Shown: positions 8,635 to 59,134, counted from the stretch's first letter. The stretch: DNA of 64,000 bases from Haloplanus vescus (GCF_900107665.1 NZ_FNQT01000003.1:248001-312000), one strand, 5' to 3'. Numbers and translations are program-made. The notes: generated by a model from the sequence alone, not told the origin.

Positions 8635-9600
8635 CTACACCAGCCGAACCAGCGAGCTCTCCACTTCGCCGCCGACGGCGACGATTCGACCCTCGCGTCG
8701 GAACTCCTCGATGGGCTGGCCGGCGTGTCGCGTCTCGATTTTGTCCTCGACGGCGGCCCGGTCGATAGTCGCGTCCGGCGGGAGGACGTACACCCGTTCG
8801 GTCCACGTCGTGTCGCCCTCGATATCGAGGCGCCGCCCCGTCGCGACGGCGTTACTGAGCGGATACGTGTCCTCTGCGGGTTCGAGTTCGTACCCCGTCG
8901 CGTAGTCCGCCGTCCCGAAGTAGTCGACCAGTGCGGCGAGCCCCGAATCATCGGCCGTGTGGACTTCGCCCGCCGCCTGCTGGTCGAGCGCCGTCGCGAG
9001 TGGGTCGGTCGTGGCGTCGGGGGCGCCGATAGTGAGGAAGACGTCTGGATGGAGGCCGACGACGCGCCGCACGCCGTCCTCGGTCCGCGTGAATCGCTGC
9101 ACGTCGTCGACGAAGCCGGTGGCGGTAAAGCCCGCCTCGGCGAGCGCACTCCGAAGGGCGTCGGGGTCGAACGACCCGCCAGCGACGCGATAGGACTCGT
9201 CGGGGTCGCCGGCGTGGTTCACCGTGAGGACGGCGTCGAGGGCGTCGACGGGGATGGGGACCCCGAAGTACGCCTCGCTTCGCTGGCGCCAGTAGGTGTC
9301 CAGCGATTCGGCGAACGACGGCGTGGCGTCGCGCCGGACCGCGGCCAGCGAGAGGTGCGTGAACTCGTAGGTGTGCGGCGTCACGGGCGTCGGCGCGACG
9401 AGCCACGAGCGATAGGGGTCGAGAGTTCGCGACGTCGGTTGGGGCGTCGACGTGGTGGTGGCCGTCGCAGTCGCGGTGGCCGGCGGCGTCTCGCTCCGCT
9501 CGCCCGTCGATGTCGTCTCGGTCGCCGAATCCGCACAGCCGGCGAGGCCGCTCCCGGCCGTCAGCGCACCCAGCGTGCGGAGGTAGTGACGCCGCTGCAT
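8635..9600 (-). CDS. Tat lipoprotein, unknown function
   Basis: A 321-residue exported protein with the start MQRRHYLRTLGALTAGSGLAGCAD (RR-type signal and lipobox), then a Thr/Ser/Pro-rich linker and a mature region without catalytic motifs that I recognise. The C terminus reads GQPIEEFRREGRIVAVGGEVESSLVRLV. The longer reading that starts upstream of 9600 is rejected because it hides the signal. It is divergent from srp54. Confidence 0.7.
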   Translation of the reverse strand: MQRRHYLRTLGALTAGSGLAGCADSATETTSTGERSETPPATATATATTTSTPQPTSRTLDPYRSWLVAPTPVTPHTYEFTHLSLAAVRRDATPSFAESLDTYWRQRSEAYFGVPIPVDALDAVLTVNHAGDPDESYRVAGGSFDPDALRSALAEAGFTATGFVDDVQRFTRTEDGVRRVVGLHPDVFLTIGAPDATTDPLATALDQQAAGEVHTADDSGLAALVDYFGTADYATGYELEPAEDTYPLSNAVATGRRLDIEGDTTWTERVYVLPPDATIDRAAVEDKIETRHAGQPIEEFRREGRIVAVGGEVESSLVRLV

Positions 9601-9685
9601 CGACTCGCGTTGGCCCCCGACCGACTTATAGGCGTCCCCGGCTCTCCCGGTGAACAAAGCCTTTACCGGCGCCAGCGCGTAGCGA

Positions 9686-11092
9686 ATGGTAATGGTACTC
9701 GACAATCTGGGGAGTTCCCTGCGCGGCACTCTCTCCAAACTTCAGGGGAAGTCCCGTCTCGACGAGGACGACGTCGAGGAGGTCGTCAAGGAGATTCAGC
9801 GCTCCTTGCTCCAGGCGGACGTCGACGTCGACCTCGTGATGGAGCTCTCGGACGCCATCGAGACGCGAGCGCTCGAAGAGGAACCACCGGGTGGCACCAG
9901 CGCCCGCGACCACGTCCTCAAAATCGTCTACGAAGAACTGGTCGACCTCATCGGCGACTCGACGGAGATTCCGCTCGAACCGCAGACCATCCTCCTCGCC
10001 GGCCTCCAGGGGTCGGGGAAGACCACCTCCGCGGCGAAGATGGCGTGGTGGTTCTCGAAGAAGGGACTCCGTCCCGCGGTCATCCAGACCGACACCTTCC
10101 GCCCCGGCGCGTACGAACAGGCCGAGCAGATGTCCGACCGTGCCGAGGTGGAGTTCTACGGCGACCCCGACTCGGACGACCCGGTCGAGATTGCCCGTGA
10201 AGGGTTGGAAGCGACTTCAGACGCCGACGTTCACATCGTCGACACGGCGGGTCGACACGCCCTCGAAGACGACCTCATCGACGAAATCGAGGAGATAGAT
10301 TCGACGGTCGACCCCGACCGCTCCTTGCTCGTCCTCGACGCCGCCATCGGACAGGGCGCCAAAGACCAAGCCCAGCAGTTCGACGACTCCATCGGCATCG
10401 ACGGCGTCGTCATCACGAAACTCGACGGGACAGCGAAAGGTGGCGGTGCGCTGACCGCCGTCAACGAGACGAATTCCTCTATCGCCTTCCTCGGGACCGG
10501 TGAGACGGTACAGGACATCGAGCGCTTCGAGCCCAACGGCTTCATCTCCCGACTGCTCGGGATGGGCGACCTCAAACAGCTCTCCGAGCGCGTCGAGCGC
10601 GCGATGGCCGAGACGGGCGACGAGGAGGACGACTGGGAGCCCCAAGACATCATGGAGGGGTCGTTCACCCTGAAGGACATGCAAAAGCAGATGGAGGCGA
10701 TGAACAACATGGGGCCGCTCGACCAGGTGATGGACATGATTCCCGGCATGGGCGGCGGGCTGATGGACCAGTTGCCCGACGACGCGATGGACGTGACTCA
10801 GGACCGGATGCGAACCTTCGACGTCGCCATGGACTCGATGACCGAGGACGAACTGGAGAACCCCCGAACCATCGGCCAAGAGCGCGTCGAGCGCATCGCC
10901 CGCGGCGCCGGCGTCGACGAGGAGTCCATCCGCGAACTCCTCGAACAGCACAAGATGATGGAGCGGACCATCAAACAGTTCCAGGGGATGGGCGACGGCG
11001 ACATGCAGCGCATGATGAAGAAGATGCAGCAAGGCGACGGCGGCGGTGGCGGCGGCATGGGCGGCATGGGCGGGATGGGTCCGTTCGGATAA
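9686..11092 (+). CDS. srp54: Signal recognition particle 54 kDa GTPase
   Basis: A 468-residue SRP54/Ffh protein that binds 7S RNA and signal sequences and directs ribosomes to FtsY at the membrane. The N domain helices come first, then the G domain: G1 [40 protein letters not shown] and the closing FLGTGE. The methionine-rich M domain follows ([17 protein letters not shown]..., [16 protein letters not shown]) with a Gly/Met tail. ATG 9686 (MVMVLDN) or ATG 9692 can serve as start. Its receptor FtsY is encoded at 49.1 kb. Confidence 0.97.
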
Positions 11093-50799: not shown

Positions 50800-50873
50800 G
50801 CCGCCTTAGCTCAGACTGGGAGAGCACTCGACTGAAGATCGAGCTGTCCCCCGTTCAAATCGGGGAGGCGGCA
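50800..50873 (+). tRNA. tRNA-Phe(GAA), integration target
   Basis: Acceptor GCCGCCT pairs with AGGCGGC (50866-50872), anticodon stem CTCGA/TCGAG encloses loop CTGAAGA with anticodon GAA, and the T arm is CCCCG-TTCAAAT-CGGGG. The gene is complete because the inserted element restores its 3' end; the displaced original 3' end is at 59107-59134. Confidence 0.96.
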
Positions 50874-50874
50874 T
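50847..50874. repeat. attL: left 28-bp attachment repeat
   Basis: Covers the T arm and 3' acceptor strand of tRNA-Phe plus the discriminator A and one T. Identical to 59107-59134; the flanking bases on both sides differ, so the repeat ends here. Confidence 0.92.
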
Positions 50875-51367
50875 ACTTGTTGCGGGTCGAACCACAATCA
50901 CTCCACAGCGTTGCGATTGACCCAACTTCGACGGGAAATTGCCGGGAGATTTGCCCCCGTCACAGCACGCGACCTCGCGCTTGCTTGCGTTTCGTGAGAT
51001 TCGACGTAGGCCAGTATGGTATAATTCCGGAACCGAGTGAATGTGAAGCGTGCGTCTATTCGTCTGGTCAAACCATGTCAACCCAACCGTCAGGGTATCG
51101 GCAGATGTTGATTACGACTTTGCCACCCATGGAGAGGTTAATCTTGCGCCGCATACTCGTCGCTAAGATGCTGACGCATATGAACGATAGGACAAACTGA
51201 ACCGGACGTCCTCAAACGGGTACGATGGTCGCCTACCGGACACGCATATAGACGACACTGCCGAAGGAAAGATATCCGTGTCTTATGACGACGAACACTA
51301 TAGCGCCTCACAGTGATGGAGAACTACTGCTTAACTCTTATTGATGTACTCCTCGTACTAGAAGTCA
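50875..51367. other. Left end of the element, 493 bp without a firm gene
   Basis: A short reading frame at 51075-51200 (41 codons, MSTQPSGYRQMLITTLPP...) is possible but has no support. Other open frames here run through the tRNA. The last 60 bases before 51368 contain CTTAACTCTTA (about 51330-51340), a plausible TATA region for the zinc-finger gene. Confidence 0.5.
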
Positions 51368-51661
51368 ATGAGTAATGAACCGGATTGGAAACAATGTCCT
51401 ACGTGTAGTGGGAACGGTACCGTCGTTACTGATGAGAGAGGTGTTCAAAATTGTCCGACCTGTGGTGGGAGTGGACGTGTTGAGAAAGAGTTCCACGAGA
51501 AGTTATCGAAAGAAGAGAAACAGACAATGGGAGGGGCAGGTGGGGCGCTTTTCGGTGCAGCCGTTGGAGGTCCTGTAGGGGCAGTTATCGGTGGCGTACT
51601 TGGTGCAGCATTAGCGGGTGCTGATGATGAGGACGACGATGATGAGATAGAACACGTGTAA
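51368..51661 (+). CDS. DnaJ-like double zinc-finger with glycine zipper
   Basis: A 97-residue protein. Residues 9-36 hold two C-x2-C-x-G-x-G knuckles (CPTCSGNGTV and CPTCGGSGRV), as in one zinc centre of DnaJ. A charged helix follows (KEFHEKLSKEEKQTMGG), then a Gly/Ala-rich segment GGALFGAAVGGPVGAVIGGVLGAALAG like glycine-zipper membrane segments, and an acidic tail. It could bind a partner and insert in the membrane. The next gene follows after 3 bases. Confidence 0.72.
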   Translation: MSNEPDWKQCPTCSGNGTVVTDERGVQNCPTCGGSGRVEKEFHEKLSKEEKQTMGGAGGALFGAAVGGPVGAVIGGVLGAALAGADDEDDDDEIEHV

Positions 51662-51664
51662 CCT

Positions 51665-52159
51665 ATGATTGACATATCTCTTCTTGTTGAAGTATTCGCT
51701 CTTCCCCTTACCACTCTCGGCGTGCTAATTGGGTTTCGGTATGAAATATACGATGGTATACAGAATTACGCCGACCGCCTCGTCAATTTTGTGACTGCAC
51801 AAGTTGAAAGTGCAGATACGGCAACTCCAGCCGATGTTCACGACTGGTCAAGCACATTGAGAGCCGCCAAACTGTATCATCGTTCTTGCGATGCGGCGAT
51901 GTACTTTGGGTATGGAAGTATTGTGAGTTGGGGTATGAGTATGTGGCTCTTCCGTGTTAATCTATTTCAACTTGGTAGCACAACTCTGCCAATAGTTAAC
52001 GCTACAATCGCTACAATGGCGGCGATTTTTTCTTTCGGACTTTTCAGTCTTCTTCTCTTTACTGTCTGTTCTCTATTCTATATTGACCATACTCGAGCGT
52101 CTACCTCCACATCTGAGTCACAAAGCGGTGCTCAAACTGGAACGGATAGCAATCCCTGA
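51665..52159 (+). CDS. Membrane protein of the element
   Basis: A 164-residue protein with an N-terminal hydrophobic segment (LLVEVFALPLTTLGVLIGF), a soluble helical middle with YADRLVNFVTAQVESADTA, two further strongly hydrophobic helices (YGSIVSWGMSMWLFRVNLF; IATMAAIFSFGLFSLLLFTVCSLFYI) and a Ser/Thr-rich tail. A+T-rich codon use unlike the host. Probably co-transcribed with the preceding zinc-finger gene. Function unknown. Confidence 0.65.
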   Translation: MIDISLLVEVFALPLTTLGVLIGFRYEIYDGIQNYADRLVNFVTAQVESADTATPADVHDWSSTLRAAKLYHRSCDAAMYFGYGSIVSWGMSMWLFRVNLFQLGSTTLPIVNATIATMAAIFSFGLFSLLLFTVCSLFYIDHTRASTSTSESQSGAQTGTDSNP

Positions 52160-52375
52160 GTCGAGCCTCGCCGGGAATGTGTATTGCTCGCATATACTAC
52201 TTGAAATATGTGATGCGGCCGGTGTTCAACATTCCAAAGTCATCGGGATGCCTGCTTTCGCGTCTCTGCAAAGACACGACGGTCTCTCCCTGTTCGTCTC
52301 ACCGGCACCCACGATGTATCCGATAAAACCTGCCTCCCGAGAACAACGAGTCTGCTGTCGTCTCTACGCTCGGAA

Positions 52376-52759
52376 TTATCCCTGCTTCAAGAATCCGAGC
52401 ACGTTATCAGAGACGTGCAGTAGCACCCACAGTGGGAACCCGAAGAAGATGATACCGAACCAGAACAGGAACAACGCGATAGGTAGAGGTTCGGGAAGTA
52501 CGGTGATTGGATACCCGAGCGCATTACCTACCACTGCGAAGAGGAAGGTCACAACACCGAGTAGATTGACCGTCCCGAGAGCGCGACGAGGCGACTGAAA
52601 CGGTCCGTAGGGGTCAGACCAGTCCCACGAATCGTTCTCTATCGAGGTCGCGTTATCGGTCGTCTCGTAGTCGTCCCCGACTGCGGTCCCACATTCAGGA
52701 CAGTACGAGGTATCGTCGTCAAGCTCTGCACCACATTGTTGGCAATATCTGACTGACAC
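52376..52759 (-). CDS. Zinc-ribbon membrane protein
   Basis: A 127-residue protein. From GTG 52759 it reads (M)SVRYCQQCGAELDDDTSYCPECGTAV, a C-x2-C...C-x2-C zinc ribbon of a kind very common at haloarchaeal membrane protein starts. A disordered acidic linker precedes two hydrophobic helices (LGVVTFLFAVVGNALGY, LPIALFLFWFGIIFFGFPLWVLL). An ATG at 52873 would add 38 basic residues; I prefer the GTG because the ribbon usually begins the protein. Confidence 0.65.
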   Translation of the reverse strand: MSVRYCQQCGAELDDDTSYCPECGTAVGDDYETTDNATSIENDSWDWSDPYGPFQSPRRALGTVNLLGVVTFLFAVVGNALGYPITVLPEPLPIALFLFWFGIIFFGFPLWVLLHVSDNVLGFLKQG

Positions 52760-53145
52760 GTCACGACGCTCGGAGGAGTCGCTGGTAGGTTTGGTGGAGA
52801 ATTTTCTATTCCGAAATCCGATGAATTGTCGATATAGATATTCTCTTTCTTTCTTCGTGACCTGTCTCTGCACTAGTCCAAGTTGTTGACTCTGTGTTCA
52901 CTTCGGCGAGACCAAAGAGCGAGGGGTATGCTCGCGTTCATTACAATTGTCCCTGTCTTCCTGCCGTTGTGGTCCTTCGGGCGCAGAGACGTGAATCTAC
53001 GACACGAGACAGTCCTATAAGATATTTACCTACGGTTGTGCTGACTCAGGCTTGCTATCTTGTACCACGACACATGTGTATCCAGAGAACACCCCTATTT
53101 TAGAACCGGTGCTACAGGCGGGTCTAATTCGTATAATGCTATGCA

Positions 53146-53280
53146 ATGGAACGAACCACCATTGCGCTCGAATCGAAGACGCGCGACAACCTTCGAGCGT
53201 TGAAGACAGGCGGACAGACCTACGACGACGTGCTCCGCGACCTGATGGAGCAGTACCGACAGGAGCACCTGGAGGAGTAA
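53146..53280 (+). CDS. 44-residue ribbon-helix-helix-like protein
   Basis: ATG 53146 to TAA 53280 encodes a 44-residue protein: a strand TTIALESKTRDNLRALK then GGQTYDDVLRDLMEQYRQEHLEE. The pattern (basic strand, K-T-G-x-T-Y-D-D-V-L) is that of haloarchaeal CopG/VapB-type DNA-binding antitoxins, and resembles the antitoxin at 14.7 kb. No toxin is adjacent. Three bases later a 26-codon gene begins, then the ATPase, so it probably regulates this unit. Confidence 0.7.
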   Translation: MERTTIALESKTRDNLRALKTGGQTYDDVLRDLMEQYRQEHLEE

Positions 53281-53283
53281 ACA

Positions 53284-53364
53284 ATGGAGAGAACCGGGTA
53301 TGCACACGACGTTTCGAGTTCAATTCACCTAGGCCTTGTCGTCAACGGAGGTGAATCGCTATGA
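53284..53364 (+). CDS. Possible 26-residue leader peptide
   Basis: ATG 53284 to TGA 53362-53364: a small peptide (MERTGYAHDVSSSIHLGLVV...), whose TGA overlaps the ATG of the ATPase gene (ATGA). A GGAGGTGA ribosome-binding site (53348-53355) sits in its end, in front of the ATPase. It may be translated to couple ATPase expression, or be fortuitous. Confidence 0.35.
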   Translation: MERTGYAHDVSSSIHLGLVVNGGESL

Positions 53365-54584
53365 CGTGGGGACTGTCGGACGAAGAGACCACGACGAGTA
53401 CCGGTCCTGAAGTGGACATAGACGAGTACGGTGTTCGTAGTACCGTACTTGACAACTTCGACGAACGGATGTGGCACGTAATCGAGGCCGTGATGTCCGT
53501 TCATGCGACCCTGTTCATAGACGGTATCGAGAGTTGTTTCGGGTTGATTATCGAAGGCCCGTCAGGAGCAGGAAAGAGTACGGCATTACGCCCATTTGAA
53601 GGTGTAAACTCGCAATTCTATCGGTCGGACGACGTTACCCCTGCTTCGTTCGTGAGTCACGACGCCTCGAGAGACGAAGATGAGTTATCGCAAGACGACC
53701 TTCTGCCTCGAATCAAGCACAAAACGCTACTGAACCCCGAAATGGCGAACTGGTTCGGGGGCGACTGGGGCGTCAGGAAGGAGAAGATGGCACGGCTGGT
53801 TCGTGTAATGGACGGACAGGGATTCACGAGCGATTCAGGAACGCATGGTCGCCGTGGATATGAAGGTGATTACCGATTCAATTTCATCGGGGCAACTACT
53901 CCTCTCAAGCAGAAGGACTGGGAAATGATGGGCCACACCGGAAATCGGTTCATGTTTATTGAAATGCCGAGCAGCGACAACCGTGAAGAGGTCTATCGTG
54001 ATATTATCTTCAGTGAACGTGAGTACGGACAAAAAGTGAATGAGATTACACAATCGGTTCAAAATTTCCTCACCGACCTATGGAACGATAACAGGGGTGC
54101 GAATGGCGTCAAGTGGGCTGCGACTCCGCGAGAGGAAGTCGGTGAGGGGTTAATATATCTATCGAGGCTCATTCTTCACGCTCGCGCTCCCCTAGGGGAG
54201 ACTTCTGAACCGGAGGCTCCCGGGCGTGTAACGGATATGGTGAAGAATATTGCGAGAGGGCACGCACTTCTGCACGGTCGAGACCATGTCACTACTGACG
54301 ACTTAGATATTTGCGCGCGGATTGCGTTGAGTACCGTTCCGAAAAAGCGTCGTTGCCTCTTACGCGAACTTCTACAATTAGGGCCGAGCGGGCGTATGCG
54401 AACACGAGAGGTGCAGAATCGACTTAATGTCGCACACGAGACGGCGACAGACCGAATGAAGACGTTAGATTCGCTCGGTGTTGCACGTCAATACAACGAA
54501 ACCGTACAGGGAGGACAAGCAGAATTTATCGAACTTGACTCCGAGTTCGCTTGGCCGGAGAACCTCGCCTTTCCTGACCAGTGA
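53361..54584 (+). CDS. AAA+ ATPase with C-terminal winged helix
   Basis: A 407-residue protein. Walker A is EGPSGAGKST (residues 65-74); a Walker B-like KTLLNPEMA lies at 121-129; FNFIGATTP (173-181) suits sensor 1; GNRFMFIEM (195-202) suits the arginine region; and the helix VTDMVKNIARGHALLHGRDHVTTDDLDICARIAL resembles sensor 2 of the MCM/MoxR branch. Residues 335-385 are a winged helix (GRMRTREVQNRLNVAHETATDRMKTLDSLGV). I infer a replication initiator or helicase for the element; a defence ATPase is possible. Preceded by a clear GGAGGTGA site. Confidence 0.75.
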   Translation: MTWGLSDEETTTSTGPEVDIDEYGVRSTVLDNFDERMWHVIEAVMSVHATLFIDGIESCFGLIIEGPSGAGKSTALRPFEGVNSQFYRSDDVTPASFVSHDASRDEDELSQDDLLPRIKHKTLLNPEMANWFGGDWGVRKEKMARLVRVMDGQGFTSDSGTHGRRGYEGDYRFNFIGATTPLKQKDWEMMGHTGNRFMFIEMPSSDNREEVYRDIIFSEREYGQKVNEITQSVQNFLTDLWNDNRGANGVKWAATPREEVGEGLIYLSRLILHARAPLGETSEPEAPGRVTDMVKNIARGHALLHGRDHVTTDDLDICARIALSTVPKKRRCLLRELLQLGPSGRMRTREVQNRLNVAHETATDRMKTLDSLGVARQYNETVQGGQAEFIELDSEFAWPENLAFPDQ

Positions 54585-54603
54585 TATGAAGTGTAGTATT
54601 TTT

Positions 54604-54766
54604 AAAGTTTAGACCGGCAGCGGGTACGTGCGTTCACAAAACAGTCAAACGTGTAGCATAGGACACTACTCTGGATATATAACTAACAGATAGAGACGGG
54701 TTCAACGGTTGCTGACCTTGTTCCAACGATACTGACTGACGTGTACCTGCGACCAGTCTAAACTTT
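54604..54766. repeat. Inverted repeat in the convergent gap after the ATPase
   Basis: AAAGTTTAGAC at 54604-54614 is repeated inverted as GTCTAAACTTT at 54756-54766 (11 of 11; 13 of 14 with flanking bases), with 141 bases between. The 209-bp gap lies between the stops of the ATPase and the repressor, where neither gene needs a promoter. Confidence 0.65.
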
Positions 54767-54793
54767 CCATTATTGATATTTCGACCATCCCTC

Positions 54794-55045
54794 TCATTCG
54801 ACCTCTTCGGCATCAACTTCGCCGTCAAGAAACCGTCGTCCGAGGTCAGTAAGTCGGTAGTTTGAGGGGTCAATCCGTTGTAGAAGGCCCGAATTAGCGA
54901 GTTTTCGGCATCGACGCGAAATGTATTCAGCGGTGTAATCGATATTCGCGGCAATCACGGTCGGCGAGGCGACAATATCCTTCTCGTGTAAAAACTCAAG
55001 AACACGCTCGTCTGCCTGTGTCATCCAGTCAACCCGTGGTCGCAT
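54794..55045 (-). CDS. phiH1-repressor-like winged-helix protein
   Basis: An 83-residue regulator: WMTQADERVLEFLHEKDIVASPTVIAANIDYTAEYISRRCRKLANSGLLQRIDPSNYRLTDLGRRFLDGE. This is the compact winged helix of haloarchaeal virus phiH1 repressor-like proteins, common on proviruses and plasmids. It is transcribed away from the HhH gene; the 132-bp gap between the starts is A+T rich and would hold both promoters, so the gene probably controls the switch of the element. Confidence 0.82.
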   Translation of the reverse strand: MRPRVDWMTQADERVLEFLHEKDIVASPTVIAANIDYTAEYISRRCRKLANSGLLQRIDPSNYRLTDLGRRFLDGEVDAEEVE

Positions 55046-55177
55046 TTAATAGCGATAGTACGGGTTTAGGATGCATGAGGGAGTGTCAAAATGTGGTTAT
55101 AGACACGAGAAATAATTTTGATAGATACGAATTTTTGTGGTTAACACTAAGTGAATAGAGAGATTCAGTAGGAGGTA

Positions 55178-55732
55178 ATGGATTTAGGTCGGCGCATACT
55201 CGAACAGAAGGAGGTGTTGTACGCAGAGACCGAGGATTTGTACGAAGATGAAGTTGCTCAACTCGAATCGTTGCCTACTGCGTTCAAGGAAGGAACGTGG
55301 TCGCAAGAAGACATAGAGTGGATAATTGAGTGGAAAGTCGGTAAAGCGTTCGAGAAACCCGTTCTCCGTTACTTCCGCAACAACGACGACGCAGTCATTC
55401 GAGACAATATCGAACGAGCAGTTCACGAGTCGAACATCCGAACCAAGGTCGAGTCACTCACGTCGTTGAGCGGGGTCGGTGTCCCCGTCGCGTCAGCGAT
55501 TCTCTTGTTCATCAATCCGGACCGGTTTACCGTGATTGACGAGCGGGCATGGCGCGTACTGTACGAGACGGGGTATCTCACGCAGGAACTCTCAGATGAC
55601 CCGACCGTCGAGGAGTACTTGATATACCTCGGAGCGTGTTGGGCACTCTCAAACGAGTACGACGTAAGTCTCCGTGCGCTCGACATGGCGCTGTGGGCGT
55701 TTGATACAGAGGATACCATCACCAGCGACTAA
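55178..55732 (+). CDS. Helix-hairpin-helix protein resembling DNA glycosylases
   Basis: A 184-residue protein, mostly helical. Residues about 93-130 read VESLTSLSGVGVPVASAILLFINPDRFTVIDERAWRVLYETGYL: a hairpin L-x-G-V-G-x2-x-A-S, then a hydrophobic helix and an Asp (VIDERAW) placed like the catalytic Asp of the HhH-GPD superfamily (V-D-T/x-V-x-R). The flanking helices fit that fold, but full enzyme length is lacking. DNA base removal or structure binding is inferred, not shown. Confidence 0.68.
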   Translation: MDLGRRILEQKEVLYAETEDLYEDEVAQLESLPTAFKEGTWSQEDIEWIIEWKVGKAFEKPVLRYFRNNDDAVIRDNIERAVHESNIRTKVESLTSLSGVGVPVASAILLFINPDRFTVIDERAWRVLYETGYLTQELSDDPTVEEYLIYLGACWALSNEYDVSLRALDMALWAFDTEDTITSD

Positions 55733-55759
55733 ATCCAGTCAGGAGAAATACTACAACGC

Positions 55760-56221
55760 ATGGACGACTCAGAACGGCCCGAACGTCCCGGTCCCGATGC
55801 TGACGCCGCTGAGATAGCGGAGTGGATGGAGAAGGATTTCGGGCGGGCCGTGGCTGAGGGAATGGCAAACGCTGGCAACGAGGATGACTCCGATGACGAG
55901 CAGGAGGTCGTTGAGGTCGAGATACTCAATCACGAGCGCGGTGAAGTCGTCGGGACGATAGACACGAACGGAAACTTGGACACGGAGAGCGAGGTGCTGA
56001 GAAACGTCTCGCAGGAATATCTTGAGGAGGGCATCCCCGTGCTCGTCCCTACGATTTACGAGAACGAGGACGGCGAGACAGTTCACGCCGACGCCGAGGT
56101 AATGGTCGAACCGGGAACTACGGGATTCGTGCGAGCCTTCGTTGACGAACTCCCGAGTCCGTTCGACTATGATACGGAGGTTCTCGGTGAACTGCCGGTA
56201 TACGCGAACGATGTCTCCTGA
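55760..56221 (+). CDS. Acidic hypothetical protein
   Basis: A 153-residue protein with a disordered acidic N terminus (DADAAEIAEWMEKDFGRAVAEGMANAG, then Asp/Glu run) and a beta-rich C-terminal domain (VVEVEILNHERGEVVGTIDTNGNLDT...IPVLVPTIYENEDGETV). It follows the HhH gene by 27 bases on the same strand, so they may be co-transcribed. No family recognised. Confidence 0.62.
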   Translation: MDDSERPERPGPDADAAEIAEWMEKDFGRAVAEGMANAGNEDDSDDEQEVVEVEILNHERGEVVGTIDTNGNLDTESEVLRNVSQEYLEEGIPVLVPTIYENEDGETVHADAEVMVEPGTTGFVRAFVDELPSPFDYDTEVLGELPVYANDVS

Positions 56222-56254
56222 CTGCAAAAAATCGAAACGGAGGCCCGTGTGGGC

Positions 56255-56830
56255 CTACTCCTCGTCGTCCGACGCCTTGTTCTTCTCAGCCACGAGCGAG
56301 TACGTTTCCTTCGTGAAACGGTACTTGCTCGGGTCGGCGTACGGCTGGAGGACTGTCCGTCCCACAGCCTCGTTCACCTTGTGCTTGACCTCGTTGAAGT
56401 CGTAGGGATTCCCGACTTCATCGAGTAGGTCACGTGTGATTCCTTCGCGGTCACACACTTGGGCCACCAGCGTGTGAAGGGCGCTGGTGTTACCCCACGG
56501 AGCGGCGTTCCGCGTGTCGCGCTCCGAGTCGTACTCGATGTCCAGAATGATGGGGTTCGTCCCACCCTGGAACTCCTTCACGAGGTATCCGTCCTCGACG
56601 AGGTCGTTTAGGAGACGAGTGTACTTCAACGAAGTGAGAACCCGCTCCTTATCGTCGATGACGTCCTCGATGGTATCGGAACCCTCCACGTCTTCGCGGA
56701 GGTCGGGACGGTTGAACGTCTGGGGCCCGTGAACGTGGGCGATTGTCTGTGCTACTCGCTGTCGTGCCGTGGTGAGTTCGTCCCACGGTGTGTGTTCGTC
56801 GTCGGAACGTGAGTCGGTAACCGAGCTCAT
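56255..56830 (-). CDS. Hypothetical protein with helical DNA-binding look
   Basis: A 191-residue charged soluble protein. Segments EDVIDDKERVLTSLKYTRLLNDLVEDGYLVKEFQGGTNPIILDI look like a winged helix (recognition helix then wing), and the second half (DFNEVKHKVNEAVGRTVLQPYADPSKYRFTKETYSLV) is helical with a strand end. Perhaps a transcription factor or replication accessory. Faces the preceding gene tail to tail. Confidence 0.6.
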   Translation of the reverse strand: MSSVTDSRSDDEHTPWDELTTARQRVAQTIAHVHGPQTFNRPDLREDVEGSDTIEDVIDDKERVLTSLKYTRLLNDLVEDGYLVKEFQGGTNPIILDIEYDSERDTRNAAPWGNTSALHTLVAQVCDREGITRDLLDEVGNPYDFNEVKHKVNEAVGRTVLQPYADPSKYRFTKETYSLVAEKNKASDDEE

Positions 56831-57359
56831 GTGATGGGGCGCTCGGCCGTCTGCGACAAGAGAAAACTATTTCGTCAGGGCGGCCAAAGACTGGCATAAG
56901 CCCCGATAGCCTCCCTTGTCGCGGGGGCCCCGAATCCTTGCGGCCGAACGGGGGCGTTGGTGGGGCTGTCCTCCTCTCGGCCCGCGGAACCTGCCAGGGA
57001 ACCGCGCGGGCCGAATCGTACTTCGTTTGACCTATCGTCGACCGGGAAGTCCGGCGTTCGGTCACAAAGTGGGACCCCCGGCATATAAGCATTTCCCCGC
57101 ACGCTCCGCAAAATTGAGAAGTTCTAGGTTAACCCAAACCTTTCTGCTCACGTTTGAAATGCAAATATCGTGAATCTGGATATCCGACTGATGTTCTTTG
57201 AAACGGGAGAATGTGCCTGAAACGCCCGATAGACAGCATTTCAGCCTATATTTCCACAATCGACGGGTTCTATGACCACATTTGACGTTTCAAATTTCCC
57301 GAGGAAGCAGGAATATAGAATATCTCTGCAAAGAATTTATGCTCGGAGCGTTCCACAGG
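56831..57359. other. 529-bp non-coding region inside the element
   Basis: Two parts. 56880-57110 is unusually G+C rich for this element and forms several possible hairpins, ending in a TATA-like CATATAAGC at about 57081-57089. 57120-57300 is A+T rich and repeats TTTGAAACG (57197-57205; inverted at 57286-57294) with near copies at 57153-57161 and 57217-57224. It could be an origin, operator cluster or an untranslated RNA; I see no gene. Confidence 0.55.
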
Positions 57360-58025
57360 ATGAATCAGACTATGGAAACAACTGTCACATTCGAGTATGG
57401 TCCGCTAACCGTCGAAATACACGCTCGAGACGACGAGAATTACCAGGATGAGATACTAGACCTTCTTCGATTTCTTGAAAACCATCAAGAGCAATTTGAG
57501 GAGATAGGTGTCGAATCAGAGGTTGCGGAGATGAAATCAGACAAAACTGGAACCGTTTCTTTGGACCAATTCGAGGATGGAGAGAGAAACGAAGAGGATG
57601 AAGAGGAACCCGACTCAACTGCGCTCGGTTCAATTGCTTCGGAATTACAGCTCTCGGTTACTAATCTGAAGGACTTCTTATATGTCGATTCTGACGGCGA
57701 TGATTTCCCGGTTATATATGTTGATGAGTTTGAGGATATCGGCGAAAGGCAGACCGACCGACAACGAGTCGCTTCGTTAATTCTTCTCTATTTGTGGCAC
57801 GAATGCTATGATAAAGACCGCGTGAAATCTGGGGTTTTGAAGGATGCTCTTGAACTCTCGAATGTTTCTTCGTCTGGGATGGCAAATATGTATCAGGGTG
57901 AGGGGGACCGTTATTTCGACCGTCGAGGTCGAGGACCAACTGCTACGGTTGCATTGACACCCCCCGGGAAACGACAAGCACGCAAGGTTCTTCGACGGCT
58001 CGCCAACGAAAAGAAGGAGTCCTGA
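57360..58025 (+). CDS. Hypothetical protein, two-part
   Basis: A 221-residue acidic protein. From ATG 57360 (or ATG 57372) an N-terminal domain TTVTFEYGPLTVEIHARDDENYQDEILDLLRFLENHQEQFEEIGVE looks like a beta hairpin plus helix. A Glu/Asp linker leads to a helical C-terminal region (DRQRVASLILLYLWHECYDKDRVKSGVLKDALELSNVSSSGMANMYQGEGDRYF...RRGRGPTATVALTPPGKRQARKVL) that resembles a winged helix with a basic end. A DNA- or RNA-binding role is possible but not shown. Confidence 0.62.
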   Translation: MNQTMETTVTFEYGPLTVEIHARDDENYQDEILDLLRFLENHQEQFEEIGVESEVAEMKSDKTGTVSLDQFEDGERNEEDEEEPDSTALGSIASELQLSVTNLKDFLYVDSDGDDFPVIYVDEFEDIGERQTDRQRVASLILLYLWHECYDKDRVKSGVLKDALELSNVSSSGMANMYQGEGDRYFDRRGRGPTATVALTPPGKRQARKVLRRLANEKKES

Positions 58026-58029
58026 GGAA

Positions 58030-59052
58030 TTACGAATCTTCAAGATATCCCCGACGCTGTTCCATTTTCACCTGCTCTGAACGCTTATCGTAGTGTTTGT
58101 CCAGCACGTCCATGCCCACGTTCATTCGGTCACTCACGACCTTTTCAGGGACATCCTCAGACAAGTGGTGTGTGATAGACCCGCGACGTATATCATGAGG
58201 ACTCACGTTCGGAGGGCACTTACTATAGTGTCCGTAGTCAGTTGCTTCGCACTCGTTGGGGTCACGACCGACAGGACAATCAGCATCGTAGAAGCACGGA
58301 CGAGTGACGAAGTACACTGCATCGCGAATTGATGACGCCTGCATCCGACCATTCTCCGTCGTCAGTATCGGTTCACGCCCGTAGTCGTCGGTCACGTCGT
58401 GACGATGGTGGTCAATCCAGTCATCGATTACGCGGCACGTCTCCGCGGTCAACGCGACGAGACGTTCCCCTTCCTCGCCGTTCTTCAGGGGCGTACCCAT
58501 ATCGGGACGGTGTTCGAGGAGGAGTGATTTGTTTTCGCCGTCGTAGTCGTCAACGTCAATGGATTTCAGTGCCCCGAGACGCATCCCCGTCTGCCAGAGA
58601 ATTTCGAGAATAACGTGCGGACGAGAGGCGTACTTGAAGCGTCGCAGGTATGGGAGGAGTTCGTCAGCATCGTCACCGTCGAGAATGCCGTTCGCCTGTT
58701 CGTCGTGTTTCTTTAACGCCGGCATCACGATTTTATCGTGTAATCCCTCGGTGACGGCATCGATGGATTCGCACCATCGAATGAAGACACGAAGGGCGTC
58801 GAGGTTGCCTTCGAGCGTGATGGGTTTGAGGTCGCCGTCGTCACGACGCCACGTTTTGAACTGTTGCAGTTTCCGTCCCGTGAGGTCGTTCATGTTGTCG
58901 AGGCCTTCGACGTTCTCACACCATCGGATGAAGTGTTTGAGTCGGTAGTGATACCCGTCGAGAGTCGATTGCGATACTTCGTGCTTCCGCGCGTTGAGGT
59001 ACATCTCCTTTGCCTCAGCGGGTGAGATGGGTTCGAGCGTTTCGTACGTCAT
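58030..59052 (-). CDS. Tyrosine recombinase (integrase)
   Basis: A 340-residue site-specific recombinase. N-terminal SAM-like domain (residues 10-115) is followed by the catalytic domain with R158 (ILWQTGMRLGALKSID), H286-x-x-R289 (SPHDIRRGSITHHL) and the nucleophile Y321 (DKHYDKR). A Cys-rich insert with four Cys (residues 253-279) may bind zinc. ATG 59052 is chosen over longer readings, which run through the attachment repeat. It ends 4 bases after the preceding gene, tail to tail. Confidence 0.92.
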   Translation of the reverse strand: MTYETLEPISPAEAKEMYLNARKHEVSQSTLDGYHYRLKHFIRWCENVEGLDNMNDLTGRKLQQFKTWRRDDGDLKPITLEGNLDALRVFIRWCESIDAVTEGLHDKIVMPALKKHDEQANGILDGDDADELLPYLRRFKYASRPHVILEILWQTGMRLGALKSIDVDDYDGENKSLLLEHRPDMGTPLKNGEEGERLVALTAETCRVIDDWIDHHRHDVTDDYGREPILTTENGRMQASSIRDAVYFVTRPCFYDADCPVGRDPNECEATDYGHYSKCPPNVSPHDIRRGSITHHLSEDVPEKVVSDRMNVGMDVLDKHYDKRSEQVKMEQRRGYLEDS

Positions 59053-59106
59053 GTGTTGACTCCGAAACGCAAACGAAGCACGAAATCGGCCGACTGTGGT
59101 CGATTC

Positions 59107-59134
59107 TCCCCCGTTCAAATCGGGGAGGCGGCAT
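59107..59134. repeat. attR: right 28-bp attachment repeat
   Basis: The displaced 3' end of tRNA-Phe, identical to attL. Only the T arm and 3' acceptor strand are present, so this is not a tRNA gene. The integrase start is 55 bases to the left. Confidence 0.92.

Follow-up and report, generated by a model that had tools for sequence, protein, structure and literature searches.

An A+T-rich stretch that follows a tRNA-Phe gene of Haloplanus vescus, within the 64,000-nucleotide window (the whole stretch of DNA that was analysed), raises the question of whether it constitutes a discrete mobile element and, if so, of what kind. The original prediction, drawn from the sequence of the window, was an integrated element of 8.26 kb bounded by a perfect repeat of the tRNA-Phe 3′ end, and its limits are borne out here (Table 1). 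Exactly two copies of the 28-mer TCCCCCGTTCAAATCGGGGAGGCGGCAT are present in the window, at an offset of 8,260 bp, and the repeat extends beyond this 28-bp core at 31/32 match. The core comprises the final 27 bases of tRNA-Phe and one further base, and the tRNA gene is intact, as anticipated for an insertion that restores its target. Chance is not a credible origin for an exact 28-mer matching a tRNA 3′ end. The predicted A+T richness is equally evident, with a G+C content of 0.522 inside the element and of 0.662 and 0.688 in its flanks (52% across the 8,260 bp, against 66–69% for the genome), and a search of the host's own genome finds the element once.

Table 1. Features of the tRNA-Phe element of Haloplanus vescus, in window coordinates.
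Feature	Position	Strand	Assignment	Evidence or remark
tRNA-Phe (gaa)	50800..50873	+	Integration target, gene intact	ARAGORN, Rfam tRNA
attL	50847..50874	+	28-bp core, tRNA-Phe 3′ end	Exact repeat
Left end	50875..51050	no strand	Conserved left end	87–92% identity in four siblings
gA	51368..51661	+	97 aa, CxxC zinc motifs and Gly-zipper-like segment, accessory	Weak Pfam matches only; absent from siblings compared
gB	51665..52159	+	164 aa, hydrophobic, probably membrane protein, orphan	No Pfam family
gC	52376..52873	-	165 aa, zinc ribbon, hydrophobic C-terminus	Pfam PF13240, 3.4e-8; sibling copies 57–66% identical
gK	53146..53280	+	44 aa, putative RHH/CopG-like protein, by motif	Directly ahead of replication gene
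gD	53361..54584	+	407 aa, AAA+ ATPase, C-terminal winged helix, MCM-like fold; probable replicative helicase/initiator	
gE	54794..55045	-	Winged-helix repressor, phiH1 type	PHROG 2440, 1.2e-30
gF	55178..55732	+	HhH (DNA-glycosylase-like) protein	NCBIfam N-glycosylase/DNA lyase, 6.6e-5; Pfam HHH, 0.02
gG	55760..56221	+	153 aa	Residues 51–151 match N-terminal domain of Druskaviridae Mu-gpF-like head protein
gH	56255..56830	-	Cargo, 191 aa, divergent from gI	Pair with gI conserved at five further loci
gI	57282..58025	+	Cargo, divergent from gH; 247 aa as listed, with translation probably starting further downstream	
gJ	58030..59052	-	SNJ2-type tyrosine integrase, 340 aa from ATG at 59052	Pfam PF00589, 4.1e-9
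attR	59107..59134	+	Second 28-bp core	Exact repeat

The search for an empty site that had been proposed with the prediction was carried out in silico: the window's two flanks were joined and the product was compared with same-genus genomes. Four of these carry the uninterrupted site, in which tRNA-Phe is directly joined to the window's right flank, with identities of 93.9% over 198 bp (L049 and L050), 87.9% over 199 bp (L034) and 86.9% (L052). Two observations named beforehand as counting against an integrated element, related strains carrying these genes without the repeats and repeats that are unrelated chromosomal copies, did not appear in any genome examined. It is these empty sites, together with the sibling elements found at the same tRNA, that establish the term integrative element. 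The island in tRNA-Phe is hence real and well bounded, and it is probably mobile, even if it could be fixed and silent in this host.

The element holds eleven genes, which occupy approximately 76% of its length. As foreseen, many of its products are orphans and virion genes are wanting, with no convincing virion structural family recognized by Pfam or PHROGs among the ten larger proteins; the weak tape-measure matches of gA are due to its Gly-rich segment. The compact set of functions originally described, comprising an integrase, a phiH1-like repressor (gE) and a replication-type AAA+ ATPase (gD), is confirmed, and the predicted HhH protein, gF, retains its label as a weak sequence assignment. 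The small gK gene had been overlooked in the first reading.

The integrase gene lies just inside attR, as predicted, with the N-terminus of its product toward the right repeat, and gJ combines SAM-like (PF02899) and PF00589 domains in Pfam, with the R, HxxR and Y residues kept in order (R...HxxR...Y). It shows 45.7% identity to the SNJ2 integrase over 90% of the query and 42–45% identity to the integrases of HHPV4, HRPV9, Halfgib1 and Harhisp1 (42–46% to pleolipovirus integrases overall). When the IntSNJ2 family is defined by at least 30% identity over 60% of length to known members, in addition to SAM-like and Phage_integrase domains, gJ falls within it, as does the element by its insertion at a tRNA 3′ end with a restored tRNA gene. 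The family has been described as confined to Halobacteria (PMC8371274), and strong relatives of its SNJ2-type integrases (E <= 1e-100) are present in 209 of the 392 sampled genomes of the order. Closer to gJ, a clade of integrases with about 69–95% identity is tied to tRNA-Phe: of 17 delimited elements with an integrase of about 67% identity or more, which span 2.7–16.9 kb, 16 reside in tRNA-Phe and one in tRNA-Pro, and six more loci with clade integrases, some at contig ends or beside tRNA-Leu, were left undelimited. The element adds a new member to the SNJ2-type integrative elements and may also belong to a haloarchaeal satellite group that has yet to be described.

An integrase family common to pleolipoviruses, and a phiH1-type repressor that these viruses also carry (PMC8371274), would be compatible with a pleolipovirus provirus reduced to a remnant by loss of its virion genes. 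This origin appears very improbable, however, in view of the intact, undecayed look of both ends and genes, of the wide distribution of SNJ2-type integrases in the order (209/392 genomes) and of sibling elements that have the same backbone and no recognized pleolipovirus structural gene. Among the scanned proteins of the window element itself, neither the spike nor the membrane protein genes of pleolipoviruses were detected. A simple decayed provirus was also considered and dropped, given that no structural gene was recognized in the siblings.

Four siblings of the element occupy tRNA-Phe in hosts from other families of the order (L101, 11.2 kb; L102, 10.6 kb; L106, 8.9 kb; L035, 5.6 kb). Their integrases are 83–92% identical to gJ and their left ends retain 87–92% identity over some 200–250 bp, tRNA included. 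The genes gE, gF and gG follow the same order in L101, L102 and L106, with gG present also in L035, and gF usually adjoins gG in relatives. All four siblings share gK, which is conserved although the gene downstream of it differs: the AAA+ gene gD follows in the window and in L035, and a D5_N/DUF5906 helicase follows in L101, L102 and L106. The strongest indication that gD is the replication gene comes from this exchange at one position behind gK. Judged by sequence comparison, the window element and its siblings are mosaics with swappable replication and cargo modules, and across related elements MCM-like, D5-type and primase-polymerase replication modules have been exchanged.

Structural comparison points in the same direction. 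The AlphaFold2 model of gD (pLDDT 87) has MCM AAA+ domains as its best PDB matches (top Z 17.7, 4.1 Å, 295 residues), with the C-terminal winged helix included in many of them. The predicted AAA+ ATPase is real. An AAA+ fold and a C-terminal winged helix are common to gD and the MCM helicases, but gD has no N-terminal MCM domain, is only about 14% identical to them and, up to an E of 0.1, is not matched by the Pfam MCM family; its sequence gives essentially P-loop matches alone against solved structures. It is therefore MCM-like in fold, and not a family member by sequence, and probably acts as a replicative helicase or initiator. Relatives of gD occur in 13 of the 392 genomes, and a pattern scan places them in Halogranum rubrum, Haloferax profundi, Halovenus carboxidivorans and Halostella pelagica, with distant bacterial ones too. 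Many haloarchaeal copies are enclosed, along with an SNJ2-type integrase, by tRNA-derived repeats (tRNA-Phe, -Lys, -Arg, -Thr and -Val), and in several elements the gD-type AAA+ protein is fused to, or adjoins, a primase-polymerase-like protein, which in L043 carries the NrS-1 HBD domain (PF22763, 2.3e-12). No primase was found in the window element. The replication control of its own that had been ascribed to the element can be inferred from the MCM-like AAA+ protein and the RHH-like gene that precedes it, in the slot where siblings have a D5-type helicase.

A second site of exchange lies between gG and the integrase. It holds a type II restriction endonuclease, a methyltransferase and a TBP gene in L101, two methyltransferases in L102, orphans in L106 and the gH-gI pair in the window. 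More distant members carry further defence cargo, including type IIG enzymes (L043, L154), GmrSD/HEC-05 (L038), a DrmC-like PLD protein (L042) and an RT_UG21 reverse transcriptase (L158). The divergent gH-gI pair recurs in five further loci (gH 59–82% and gI 48–61% identity), three of which adjoin integrases of the same clade, and comparison with known defence families yielded no convincing match. Its position in this slot suggests that gH-gI may be a defence system.

Taken together, these features invite comparison with phage-inducible chromosomal islands (PICIs), in which a lone small terminase accompanied by an integrase, replication genes and defence cargo is a recognized pattern (PMC6092414). 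Under such a reading the element would be a satellite of tailed haloviruses that excises and replicates on helper infection, uses the helper capsid through mimicry by gG and interferes with the helper, a possibility that is on balance less likely than not. The first reading had offered a satellite as an alternative label, a guess that gains indirect support from sister elements with a lone small terminase and from the head-protein domain of gG. The main evidence comes from a sister branch of the integrase tree, where eight elements of 7–17 kb encode a tailed-virus small terminase (TerS; PHROG terminase small subunit, best 1.4e-27) whose closest named virus protein, a homolog, is HGTV-1 gp3, encoded upstream of the large terminase gene. 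No large terminase, portal or capsid gene was found in these elements among those large ORFs that were scanned; L154 (16.9 kb, in tRNA-Phe), with its ORFs scanned in part, carries a tape-measure gene, an observation that bears on whether proviruses may use this attachment site too. A packaging gene without a virus shell suggests that the element family includes parasites of viruses. The gH-gI cargo connects both clades, and defence cargo and element size are compatible with a satellite.

In the window element, the corresponding link to tailed viruses would be gG. Its residues 51–151 align at 47% identity with the first 101 residues of the HCTV-16 Mu-gpF-like head protein (43% for HVTV-1), a domain otherwise seen only in Druskaviridae head proteins, and a structure search of a viral library with gG returned HCTV-1 R4TI14 as its sole significant match (1.7e-9); against solved structures, the gG model (pLDDT 66) gave no match above Z 3.8. 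A search of the host's own genome for the Mu gpF family was negative, as was a search of the genus with TerS. In IMG/VR, single sequences of gF and gG match nothing, and the gG alignment matches only two contigs, whose lengths are those of the Druskaviridae isolates HCTV-1 and HVTV-1. Since gG and TerS were never found together in the loci read, one might suppose that each replaces the other. The integrase tree nonetheless assigns a single origin to each, in sister clades, so that their exclusivity is a single event and amounts to one contrast rather than to a statistical pattern; repeated independent replacement of one by the other was dropped on these grounds.

Other observations weigh against a satellite. 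The window element has no TerS in an HMM scan, and gG is present outside this integrase clade as well. In IMG/VR, viral contigs have no match to the integrase clade or to TerS, and the alignment of gD finds one distant relative at 30% identity. That the tRNA-Phe islands of the clade are PICI-like satellites of haloarchaeal tailed viruses, one branch redirecting packaging through TerS and that of the window through gG, both with swappable anti-virus cargo of which gH-gI would be a new two-gene system, is a broader and rather unlikely reading.

The same elements can be read as self-sufficient integrative plasmids with defence-type cargo, which spread through vesicles, cell fusion or transformation, gG being a general plasmid-borne domain that was acquired by a virus; we regard this proposition as evenly balanced. 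It accommodates an element that has its own replication-type ATPase and RHH-like control gene and no virion or packaging gene, relatives that pair a primase-polymerase with AAA+, and the occurrence of relatives of gF, gH and gI on haloarchaeal megaplasmids. It is harder to reconcile with 72,556 plasmid records that contain no relative of gD (whose single sequence likewise finds no match among plasmids, phages and IMG/VR), and the lone small terminases of the sister clade are difficult to account for in these terms.

Irrespective of the route between cells, it is quite likely that the element is one of a haloarchaeal family of integrated mobile islands whose SNJ2-type tyrosine integrase targets the 3′ end of tRNA-Phe, and that it excises, is silenced, replicates as a circle and accepts cargo as proposed below. 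The exact site and core, the empty site, the siblings with conserved ends and the exchange of replication and cargo modules emerge from sequence comparison. In the proposed cycle, gJ would recombine attL with attR over the 28-bp core, releasing a circle of about 8.26 kb and leaving the tRNA gene intact, and the gE repressor would otherwise silence the element. Replication of the circle would be driven and limited by the RHH-like gK together with the MCM-like ATPase gD, and the gG-integrase region would serve as a cargo slot, filled by gH-gI here and by restriction-modification or other defence genes in siblings. The conserved left end would come to lie just upstream of the integrase gene, where it may contain integrase arm sites or the int promoter and thereby promote or regulate int; in SNJ2, an operon has been demonstrated that comes together only after the circle is excised (PMC13107129), providing a precedent for such an arrangement within the same integrase family. 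Exit from the cell could then proceed through capture by a helper tailed virus or through plain plasmid movement, both of which are compatible with this scheme.

In bacteria, the satellites of tailed phages influence the arms race between viruses and their hosts and bring defence genes with them. The literature searched, which left most subscription journals outside its scope, attributes the archaeal satellites that it names to spindle-shaped viruses and yielded no report of haloarchaeal PICI-like satellites. If the satellite reading is true, tRNA-Phe islands with a lone TerS, defence cargo and a head-protein-like domain would represent the matching haloarchaeal system, in a form amenable to laboratory tests.

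Comparison with known systems situates the element as follows. With the temperate pleolipoviruses SNJ2, HHPV4 and HRPV9 it shares the integrase family (42–46% identity), a tRNA 3′-end target and a phiH1-type repressor (PMC8371274), but it differs from them in having no pleolipovirus virion genes, in its tRNA-Phe target and in carrying an AAA+ ATPase where SNJ2 has a Rep-Arvir endonuclease (PMC13107129). Elements of Halogranum rubrum, Haloferax profundi, Halovenus carboxidivorans, Haloglomus halophilum, Halobellus sp. and Halostella pelagica likewise enclose an integrase and an AAA+ gene between tRNA-derived repeats, over 7–13 kb; unlike the window element, they mostly use other tRNAs, often encode a primase-polymerase and carry other cargo, and their AAA+ proteins are 38–49% identical to gD. 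Lastly, the element differs from PICIs in being archaeal, in sharing no PICI-specific genes as far as seen and in having no TerS of its own, yet it resembles them as a compact island with an integrase, a repressor, a putative replication module that has an AAA+ helicase-like protein but in which no primase was found (relatives having both), no phage structural or lytic genes and a slot for defence cargo, with terS present in the sister clade (PMC6092414).

The genes for the HhH protein (gF) and the Druskaviridae head-protein-like domain (gG) recur as a unit beyond tRNA-Phe islands (L100, L103, L104, L105, and L108), usually accompanied by the phiH1-type repressor gene gE and flanked by varying genes. 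The divergent pair gH-gI, a candidate two-gene cargo system, is kept in six genomes (that of the window, L134, L135, L136, L137, and L138), and in three of the loci it adjoins integrases of the same clade. In the cargo region of L101, a close sibling in tRNA-Phe, a TATA-binding-protein (TBP) gene (PF00352, 1.5e-42) adjoins a restriction-modification system, and TBP-like ORFs judged by eye to resemble it are present in L108, L110, L111, and L154.

Coordinates of features discussed in the text
Locus	Position	Feature
Window	56255-58025	gH-gI
L101	9340-9888	TBP gene
L046	around 9206-9730	Integrase and AAA+ remnants
L049	2018-2784 (oriented)	Tandem partial tRNA-Phe copies

In L047, L048, L051, L053, L054, and L026, and likewise at the right ends of the siblings L102 and L106, the 3' end of tRNA-Phe recurs as a second, partial copy approximately 120-180 bp downstream of the tRNA. 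The interval contains a conserved segment (CCGATTTGAGC...) whose predicted pairing partner is the T-arm-like copy (z of -5.1 and -4.4 in two cases); it has no match in Rfam, and an att-site scar, a mini-element, and an RNA are candidate readings. Separately, L049, a same-genus genome, and L025 have tandem partial tRNA-Phe copies with a hairpin-like insert of about 58 nt ahead of the T-arm, and L049 shows an exact tandem duplication of 288 bp.

Near tRNA-Lys in another same-genus genome (L046), integrase and AAA+ gene remnants lie side by side and represent a decayed element of the window island's kind. A relative of the AAA+ gene is also encoded by L064, a bacterial Dehalococcoidales MAG contig of 7,242 bp with an ORF where the integrase would sit, another ORF resembling a DNA methylase, and a tRNA-Met repeat of 45 bp whose copies lie 7,029 bp apart; this bacterial anatomy resembles that of the island, or else the contig is circular.

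Eight small islands integrated in tRNA-Phe, or in one case tRNA-Pro, encode a tailed-virus small terminase (L150, L152, L154, L157, L158, L164, L165, and L166). Their scanned ORFs include no large terminase, portal, or capsid gene, and L154 has a tape-measure gene. These eight islands are candidate haloarchaeal PICI-like satellites.
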